Source of the DNA: Cupriavidus respiraculi
Lineage (GTDB): Bacteria; Pseudomonadota; Gammaproteobacteria; Burkholderiales; Burkholderiaceae
DNA length: 64,000 nt
Assembly (NCBI RefSeq): GCF_914271545.1
Contig: NZ_CAJZAH010000005.1
Span: 62,001-126,000, forward strand
Direction of reading: 5' to 3'
The position numbers were made by a program, and so were the translations under genes. Numbering within the stretch: position 1 is the stretch's first letter; each line of letters opens with the position of its first letter. Under the pieces are notes generated by a model. That model was given only the letters and a program-made list of their open reading frames with translations. It was not told the DNA's origin and searched no databases. Positions 1,827-3,102 of this stretch are shown here, in pieces.

Positions 1827-1866
1827 AACACCCCGATCGTCGACGGACGATCGGGGTGTTTTTTTT
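1827..1866 (+). terminator. Intrinsic terminator after ntrC
   Basis: A perfect 15-bp stem (1827-1841 with 1846-1860), a 4-base loop and a T run from 1859 to 1866. It lies 38 bp after the ntrC stop and closes the ntrBC operon. Confidence 0.95.
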
Positions 1867-2029
1867 GATGTCGCTCTGGCCGTAGTCCGGGCCGCAAGTC
1901 AGACAATTTTCGGTAATTGCGGTCGCATGCGGTTCTGTTCACAGACGTGCGTTTGCAGTGCGGCTTGCCTATGGCTCCGTGCGTTGTCGCGGAGTACGAT
2001 CGGCCCGGCATGTTTCGTGGGGGAACAAC

Positions 2030-2332
2030 ATGGTCGGAAAAATCAGTGGTGAAGGGTCGAAGCGTGCGACCGGCAGGTCGGGCATGTCGGCAGCAGGGGG
2101 TTCGAAGGCAAGCGAAAAGGGCCGCAAGCCCCGGGCGACTGAGAACGATGACCTCGCCGCGCGGCTGATCAGGTGTCTGGCAAACGTTGGCGGTGTCCGC
2201 CTGAAGTTCAAGAAGACGATACCGATCTACTATGCCGACGCGAAGCGACCCTGGCTGGTGGTGCGTGAGCTTGGCAAGCGAAAGGAAACAGGCCGGATCA
2301 CGAAAAAGGGCCGCTTCGTCAAGGTCCCGTGA
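2030..2332 (+). CDS. Small basic protein of unknown function, upstream partner of zeta-like kinase
   Basis: 100 aa, strongly basic. The N-terminal 45 residues are Ser/Gly/Lys-rich and probably disordered. A more structured C-terminal half (about 46-100) contains YYADAKRPWLVV and ends in a Lys/Arg-rich tail. I do not recognise the family. The ATG follows a GGGGG stretch about 8 bases upstream. Its stop codon overlaps the start of the kinase gene by one base (TGATG), so the two are probably translationally coupled. By position and size it could be the antitoxin or regulator of the downstream kinase, but nothing in the protein itself shows this. Base composition is lower in GC than the neighbours, which suggests transfer. 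Confidence 0.6.
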   Translation: MVGKISGEGSKRATGRSGMSAAGGSKASEKGRKPRATENDDLAARLIRCLANVGGVRLKFKKTIPIYYADAKRPWLVVRELGKRKETGRITKKGRFVKVP

Positions 2333-3060
2333 TGGCCCGGTCCATCGGTACGGCGCTCGCCGCCGCGCTGGGGGCGCGAAACGCGCCGTTTTCCATCATC
2401 CTTGCCGGTCACAACGGAGCGGGCAAATCGACGCTGTGGCACGAGCATCTTGCCGATCATGTGCAAGTCCCGCTGGTCAACGCCGATCGCGTGATGCTGG
2501 CCCTTCTGCCGGAGCCGGATCCGGCGCAGGGTTTGCGGCGCTGGGCAAGGGAGCTGCGCGATACCAACGCATCCTGGATGCAGGTGGCGAGAAGGGCGGT
2601 CATGGCATTGGTAGCCGAGGCCGCCGGTACCGAGGTCTCGTTCGCGATGGAAACCGTCTTCTCTCATTGGCCGCCGCAGCCTGACGGCACCGTGCGCAGC
2701 AAGGTTGACTTGATCCGCAAGCTTCAACGGTCGGGCTACTTCGTGTTGCTGATCTTCGTCGGCATGGCGAACCAGGGCCTGTCGATCGTCCGTGTGCGAA
2801 ACCGCGTCATGCAAGGCGGACACGCAGTTGCCCTCGACAAGCTGGTCCATCGTTTCCAGCGGACACAGCAGGCGGTACGCGAGGCGCTGGATGTTGCGGA
2901 CGCTTCGGTACTGTTCGACAACAGCCTGTCCAGGGCAAGTGCCTTTACCCCGGTACACGTGCGCAGGCGCGGCACAGTGCTGTTCGATGTTCGGCAGTCC
3001 AGCAACACAGTGCCGGAGACCATCACGGCTTGGCTGGACATCGTCGCGCCACGGCGATGA
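2332..3060 (+). CDS. Zeta-toxin-like P-loop kinase (COG4185-type)
   Basis: 242 aa. Walker A is GHNGAGKST at 26-34. A substrate-site Asp follows in NADRV (D52), a catalytic-type Glu sits in FAMET (E107), and the RVRNRVMQGGHAV segment carries arginines typical of the zeta/COG4185 group, ending with a FDNS motif. Relatives are AAA-type kinases; true zeta/PezT toxins phosphorylate UDP-N-acetylglucosamine, while COG4185 members are mostly uncharacterised. The start is the ATG at 2332, which overlaps the upstream stop; a GTG one codon earlier is possible. One 60-base line counted inside the gene (2701-2760) is about 52% GC against about 73% in a line of the dehydratase gene, so the pair looks acquired. 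A toxin role is inference. Confidence 0.75.
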   Translation: MARSIGTALAAALGARNAPFSIILAGHNGAGKSTLWHEHLADHVQVPLVNADRVMLALLPEPDPAQGLRRWARELRDTNASWMQVARRAVMALVAEAAGTEVSFAMETVFSHWPPQPDGTVRSKVDLIRKLQRSGYFVLLIFVGMANQGLSIVRVRNRVMQGGHAVALDKLVHRFQRTQQAVREALDVADASVLFDNSLSRASAFTPVHVRRRGTVLFDVRQSSNTVPETITAWLDIVAPRR

Positions 3061-3102
3061 GCGGTCCGGGCGCCGTGCCAAACGGCGCGGCGCCCGCGCC
3101 GG

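Follow-up and report, generated by a model that had tools for sequence, protein, structure and literature searches.

What is the role of a pair of overlapping genes that lies between ntrC and a catabolic gene in Cupriavidus respiraculi, and does the pair belong to the genome in which it is found? The pair occupies positions 2030-3060 of the window (the whole stretch of 64,000 nucleotides that was analysed), within a genome assembly of 5.59 Mb in 18 contigs. The first gene (2030-2332, + strand, stop codon TGA at 2330-2332) encodes a protein of 100 amino acids, here termed the partner and proposed to be an antitoxin; the second (2332-3060, + strand) encodes a zeta-like P-loop kinase of 242 amino acids from the ATG at 2332, the proposed toxin. 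An earlier note, made from the sequence alone, had recognized both overlapping genes at these positions and suggested that they form an acquired toxin-antitoxin or defence module whose partner is of a new type. From comparative evidence we consider it probable (roughly four chances in five) that the pair is a type II-like toxin-antitoxin module, in which the kinase would act as toxin and the product of the upstream overlapping gene as antitoxin.

The pair is an acquired insert

Upstream of the pair is ntrC (TIGR01818, 689 bits), behind which a terminator-like site (1827-1860, + strand) stands close to the insert's left edge; downstream lies a fumarylacetoacetate hydrolase (FAH) family gene, encoded on the opposite strand. 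The setting between the ntrC terminator and a catabolic gene is therefore as the earlier note described it. A segment extending approximately from 1862 to 3094 is missing from four genomes of the same genus (G019, G031, G033 and G159), where the gap from ntrC to the FAH gene, as given by border matches, is 78-176 bases compared to about 1.3 kb in the window. No kinase of the clade defined below was found elsewhere in these four genomes, G159 having one weak match outside the clade. Nucleotide composition agrees with acquisition, third codon positions (GC3) being a clearer sign than overall G+C: GC3 is 74-77% in the pair and 89.5-94.5% in three neighbouring genes, while overall G+C is 63.2% in the pair and 67.7% in the window, an equally low value being reached by 74 of 630 overlapping tiles that have the length of the pair. 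A figure of 52% had been given for the kinase gene: it is correct for the lowest 60-base line (2701-2760) and true only of that line, so an island of 52% G+C was rejected, and what stands is the smaller deficit of the pair as a whole. Together, the four empty sites and the low GC3 bear out a two-gene insert.

The longest direct repeat at the insert borders is 8 bases. A search for an operator upstream of the pair returned two inverted repeats with arms 131 and 106 bases apart; the corresponding search for a promoter gave no sigma-70-like site, and terminator-like sites numbered three against 1.3 in shuffles.

The kinase retains zeta motifs and lacks GTXR

The kinase scores 32.9 bits against the Zeta_toxin family (PF06414; cut-off 22.3). 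Membership in itself says little, because, of 249 genomes sampled from the phylum, 244 contain a sequence over the cut-off; with matches of any kind in 247 of the 249, the model was too permissive to serve as a sampler of zeta kinases and was dropped for that purpose. A profile built from the clade of the window kinase shows weak similarity to solved zeta toxins: the best PDB chain is PezT (2p5t, E 0.0078), matched mostly through the P-loop.

Individual positions are more telling when read across 44 intact clade members (the window kinase included). In the P-loop GHNGAGKS (residues 26-33; 2407-2430, + strand), G26, H27, N28, G29, G31, K32 and S33 are present in 44/44 rows, position 30 being the one that varies. 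The proposed catalytic base, D52, lies within NADR (codon at 2485-2487, + strand) and is Asp in every row; by motif order it corresponds to Asp67 of zeta and Asp66 of PezT, the residues credited with deprotonating the substrate (PMC3062530, available part). ETVFS (E107-S111; 2650-2664, + strand) is likewise invariant and supplies a glutamate of the kind that the available parts of two papers assign to the nucleotide site (PMC3062530, PMC6362051). Both the Asp and the Glu were equated with zeta residues by motif order rather than through a full alignment to zeta. The segment RVRNRVMQGGH (residues 154-164; 2791-2823, + strand) has R154, R158, G163 and H164 in 44/44 rows, its other residues varying, and D196-N-S, D219 and R221 are also invariant. 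The motifs named in the earlier note – P-loop, Asp, Glu and the RVRNRVMQGGH segment – are thus all present, and the PF06414 score is above its cut-off.

One zeta element is missing. The GTXR motif, which binds UDP-N-acetylglucosamine (UNAG, UDP-GlcNAc) according to the available text of PMC6362051, is replaced after E107 by TVFS in all 44 rows. Since the motif for UDP-GlcNAc is absent, the substrate of the kinase may differ.

Kinase and partner travel as one unit

Relatives are roughly 40-57% identical and are found on chromosomes and on plasmids, Ti plasmids included, in Alpha-, Beta- and Gammaproteobacteria (class assigned by organism name), in Acidobacteriota and in one Hydrogenedentota metagenome-assembled genome (MAG). 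In a quick tree the kinases with this type of partner form one branch (44 of 66 rows, SH-aLRT 99); other types of partner, labelled HTH and small70 by eye, group with other kinase clades. Close to home the clade is rare: with 60 relatives of the window genome searched, a member was found in just two genomes, the window genome itself and one relative (G004), whose kinase is 51% identical and is on a different contig from its ntrC. Nine others of the 60 have more distant kinase matches. Absence from close relatives, a check that the earlier note had proposed, is borne out by the four genomes with the empty site.

Among the 40 plasmids listed (422 matched), eight carry a clade kinase (49.6-56.5% identity, three of them broken). 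The partner occurs on 11 plasmid records, namely all eight with the kinase plus three more; of these three, two lack a kinase in the flanks that were fetched and the third has a scrap of 40 positions. No third gene accompanies the pair: kinase, partner and antisense shadows aside, no cluster of open reading frames (ORFs) recurs in more than three loci other than those of close relatives, and among 134 neighbour ORFs each Pfam family is seen at most twice. A pattern-limited scan of viral contigs gave no kinase relative, and four phage records have a distant kinase match only. Hence it is two overlapping genes that travel together, as one mobile unit, with the motif residues of the kinase intact.

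The kinase decays while the partner is kept

If the kinase is a toxin, its loss with retention of the partner is the pattern to expect, and the reverse is not. We scored 61 clade loci: a pattern-limited scan (one genome per species) gave at least 53 loci, to which plasmid and genome loci were added and from which non-clade kinases were removed. All 47 intact kinases have the partner directly upstream. A broken or partial kinase accompanies the partner at 10 loci, the partner stands without a kinase in the fetched flanks at three, and a broken kinase lacks the partner at one; an intact kinase without partner was found at none of the 61. The toxin candidate is therefore broken or lost while the antitoxin candidate is kept, and not the other way round. 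The earlier note had staked its proposal on conservation of the pair, which these counts uphold.

These numbers include re-reading by eye, the script alone having given 45 intact, 12 broken or partial, three partner-alone loci and one broken kinase without partner. The two moved to the intact class (L049 and L053) have full frames of 265 and 277 amino acids, with profile matches over 17-230 and 17-231 of 245 positions. At L055 a gap lies within an open frame, and this kinase may be a shortened working form; at L159 the kinase is a scrap of 40 positions. Sequencing error may account for some of the breaks seen in draft genomes. The loci also include near copies, which are not independent: plasmids L154 and L155 are near-identical, and L012 and L160 represent the same Ti plasmid type.

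The physical arrangement is conserved as well. Kinase and partner share one relative frame at 42 of 50 loci, 38 with a 4-base and four with a 1-base overlap. Because it chose whichever start lay closest to the stop, CTG included (3 of the 38; at L037 no start was found), the script leans towards overlaps; the shared frame is independent of that choice. The 4-base overlap, the commonest arrangement among relatives, would also arise in the window from the alternative in-frame GTG start of the kinase at 2329, which overlaps the partner stop as GTGA. Distances among kinases correlate with distances among partners (r = 0.87; 0 of 2000 permutations as high), although co-inheritance in any operon would give the same correlation.

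Two other arrangements of function have to be set against these data. The small protein could be the toxin and the kinase an antitoxin that phosphorylates it, in the manner of type VII-like systems: kinase antitoxins exist, the small protein is basic, and its gene is the first of the two. Yet the partner is retained at 10 loci where the kinase is broken or partial and at three whose flanks hold none, and no intact kinase is found without it; on this asymmetry we rejected the reversal as very improbable. Alternatively the kinase might be a harmless metabolic enzyme served by a dedicated chaperone or regulator, as would suit a family that is also chromosomal and whose neighbours are ordinary genes. 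The patchy distribution, carriage on plasmids, the empty sites and the want of a fixed neighbour all argue the contrary, as does a kinase that is broken or lost while its supposed helper is retained, and we regard this as unlikely, if less so than the reversal.

A role mainly in abortive infection by phage is of a different kind, being a sub-case of the toxin-antitoxin reading and compatible with it. Many toxin-antitoxin pairs act in this way, and on one Sphingomonas plasmid the partner is near an Abi-family gene. Against it, neither kinase nor partner has a PADLOC match, and the pattern-limited viral scan was, as stated, negative for kinase relatives. The neighbourhoods are no defence islands: 11 PADLOC models, AbiEi models accounting for five, have matches at E 1e-10 among the 134 neighbour ORFs, with one protein each, and most neighbours are ordinary genes. 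A defence role thus finds no support here, and as the principal function it seems improbable, though slightly less so than a metabolic one. Of the two functions that the earlier note had left side by side, the toxin-antitoxin module is favoured by the comparative evidence, whereas defence – with no PADLOC match and no recurring third gene – is not.

The partner matches no Pfam or NCBIfam family convincingly

The partner is strongly basic (K+R minus D+E = +18). Of 44 aligned partners, the window protein included, 42 are basic and two acidic (-3 and -10), which means that not every member has a basic head. Single-sequence searches with the window partner returned no family. When 42 homologues (the alignment holds 42 of the 51 partners listed) were compared with Pfam and NCBIfam, scattered weak matches appeared and none was convincing, the strongest of them to ribosomal protein L16 (E 0.0048; two of the 42). 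No epsilon/PezA-type antitoxin was matched in Pfam by the 42, nor did any antitoxin occur among nine PDB chains at E 5; the ribbon-helix-helix domain PF11903 gave no match at E 0.5. The window protein used alone as a tblastn query found nothing in the plasmid collection, where other members were needed as queries, and the partner alignment proved too little conserved to serve as a collection query.

What the relatives share is a middle segment and a C-terminal tail. In the numbering of the window protein, R79, G88 and G94 occur in 43 of 44 rows and F96 in all 44. The head is the variable part, since a consensus segment VxFGxVxV near the N-terminus is missing from the window protein and one relative (L040) has just 83 amino acids.

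The C-terminal tail resembles that of a ParD-like lineage

The tail (2210-2329, + strand), proposed to be the element that locks the kinase, has in most relatives the consensus YxADPxxPxxxIRxLxGxxxxGxxxxGxF. Outside the clade, the partner profile found nothing in a first set of non-clade zeta-like loci. When 28 ParD-like loci and 16 loci of other kinases were scanned at higher sensitivity, it gave a weak match in one lineage, which has two locus numbers (L006/L097, E 0.0015), and scores at chance level elsewhere, both scans covering the non-clade loci other than L136-L147. The match proved to lie in the last ~37 residues of the partner, which resemble the C-terminus of a ribbon-helix-helix ParD-like lineage, A8 (L006 and its relatives, from the same order as the window). 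With hhalign the partner aligns to the single L006 sequence at E 2.1e-6 and 2.5e-6, and to an alignment of 13 A8 members at E 2.9e-6 and 1.3e-6 (probability 88-91%); these are single comparisons, of a pairing picked after the weak profile match. In controls, 60 column shuffles scored at most 16.4 and a reversed alignment 17.5 (38.9 observed), and ParD-like partners (A4) of other zeta-like kinases gave E 0.31. The view that the partner is of no known family is therefore to be qualified: it holds for Pfam and NCBIfam, where the 42 members have no convincing match, and not for the tail, which is kin to that of a ParD-like lineage.

Similar tails are here joined to differing heads and differing kinases. 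PF11903 is matched in 13/13 A8 members (residues 7-45 in the first), and the L006 kinase falls outside the clade in the tree. A zeta-like kinase adjoins the A8 gene in all 13 loci examined out of 17 fetched with strong matches, the count covering those other than L164, L171, L172 and L173, which are on the other strand. No ParD-like partner of the L006 type was found on plasmids. Across 300 genomes of the order, a search with the tail matched five, including the window genome and G537. The remaining three are weak (E 0.003-0.007): the kinase profile finds nothing in them, and the partner profile one weak match (E 0.0014) in an apparently spurious ORF (L151).

This resemblance suggests that the tail is the part of the partner that binds and locks the kinase. 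Such a mode is plausible given the gonococcal pair, in which the antitoxin ng_epsilon1 binds across ng_zeta1 in extended form (PMC5923241, available part).

Relation to known systems

Pairs of a zeta-like kinase and a ParD-like partner are already in print as candidate or tested toxin-antitoxin systems (PMC6504116, PMC5728571, PMC6362051, each in its available part), with toxicity and neutralization reported for such pairs (PMC6362051, PMC5728571). Rv0367c-Rv0366c (a non-canonical PezAT-like pair) and the ParD_like.Zeta_toxin pairs of TASmania resemble the window pair in having a small upstream partner and a downstream zeta-like kinase with P-loop, Asp, Glu and no GTXR. According to the available text of PMC6362051, Rv0366c too is without GTXR, and the growth arrest that it causes – the kinase being bacteriostatic – is rescued by neutralization through the upstream partner. 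In those pairs the partner is a ribbon-helix-helix ParD-like protein (PF11903), whereas the window partner has no convincing match in Pfam or NCBIfam. Epsilon/zeta and PezAT share the P-loop, the catalytic Asp and the nucleotide-site Glu (by motif order, from the available parts of their descriptions); they differ from the window pair in that its kinase lacks GTXR and its partner is not similar to epsilon or PezA in Pfam and PDB profile searches. The Neisseria pair is alike in combining a zeta-like kinase of Gram-negative origin with an antitoxin that is unrelated to epsilon and binds as an extended stretch; ng_zeta1, on the other hand, has two swapped sequence blocks and an OB domain (PMC5923241, available part), and is absent from the 12 PDB chains matched at E 1 by the clade profile. 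Closest in the tail are the A8 antitoxins, which have in common with the window partner a similar stretch of ~37 residues and the adjacent zeta-like kinase and are set apart by the PF11903 head and, for L006, by the kinase clade.

Among the matches listed, openly licensed PMC papers yielded no description of the partner family; those listed under the names TsbT/TsbA were unrelated. Nor was a relevant paper on Ti-plasmid zeta pairs among the matches listed, and the available part of the text of PMC2701414 contains no zeta terms. With ParD-like/zeta pairs already published and the partner family undescribed in the papers searched, the novelty lies in the partner, which is best read as a new family of antitoxins in toxin-antitoxin systems of the zeta type, a kind already known.

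In the mechanism that we propose, a small-molecule kinase of the zeta/PezT superfamily would be toxic when free, and the C-terminal tail of the antitoxin would lie on the kinase and block it, much as ng_epsilon1 does on ng_zeta1. The variable and usually basic N-terminus of the partner may serve in regulation or nucleic-acid binding. Growth would stop once the freed kinase phosphorylates its small-molecule substrate, which is probably a nucleotide, perhaps a nucleotide sugar, and is presumably bound by means other than a UNAG site of the GTXR type. The module may function in maintenance of plasmids or islands. More tentatively, and at somewhat less than even odds, the antitoxin family would be built around a portable kinase-locking tail that stands behind at least two unrelated heads and works with different zeta-like kinase clades, the clade kinases being a separate branch whose substrate is not UDP-GlcNAc.

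Zeta-type kinases are widespread, and few antitoxins and few substrates are known outside epsilon/zeta. The present partner family, which has no Pfam or NCBIfam model, spans three phyla (one through a single MAG) and plasmids including Ti plasmids. Its short conserved tail can be tested directly. Were the tail alone to neutralize the kinase, one could understand why related kinases are guarded by antitoxins that are not themselves related, and the search for the substrates of non-UNAG zeta kinases would be aided.

Related loci

Several further loci are recorded as observations in their own right. In G537 one locus (L153) has a lone partner gene (1303-1680) without kinase, followed by what appears by eye to be a fragment of an IS66-type transposase (1752-2012); an intact pair is present at another locus of this genome (L148). 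In three Novosphingobium genomes (L030, L033, L058) the partner stands behind a DUF6088-type gene with the kinase present, and on plasmid pF2 of Sphingobium yanoikuyae (L158, 1322-2964) it stands behind a homologous gene, next to ParDE, with no kinase: apparently a natural loss of the toxin in one shared setting. The window genome also encodes a PF11903 ParD-like protein (G000:C1:380358-380507, L088), in a locus where no zeta-like kinase was found.

Other zeta-like kinase clades have partners of their own. At L063, L065-L068 and L003 the upstream partner has ~230 amino acids and looks helix-turn-helix-like by eye. A clade found in the genus of the window and in Acidovorax (L005, L016, L146) has an upstream partner of 70-91 amino acids with a basic tail end and no obvious family at sight. 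Lastly, most alphaproteobacterial ParD-like partners (L136-L145, L018) have a conserved C-terminal tail of another kind, approximately GxGVGLDAxGNLV, which is possibly a further kinase-binding element.
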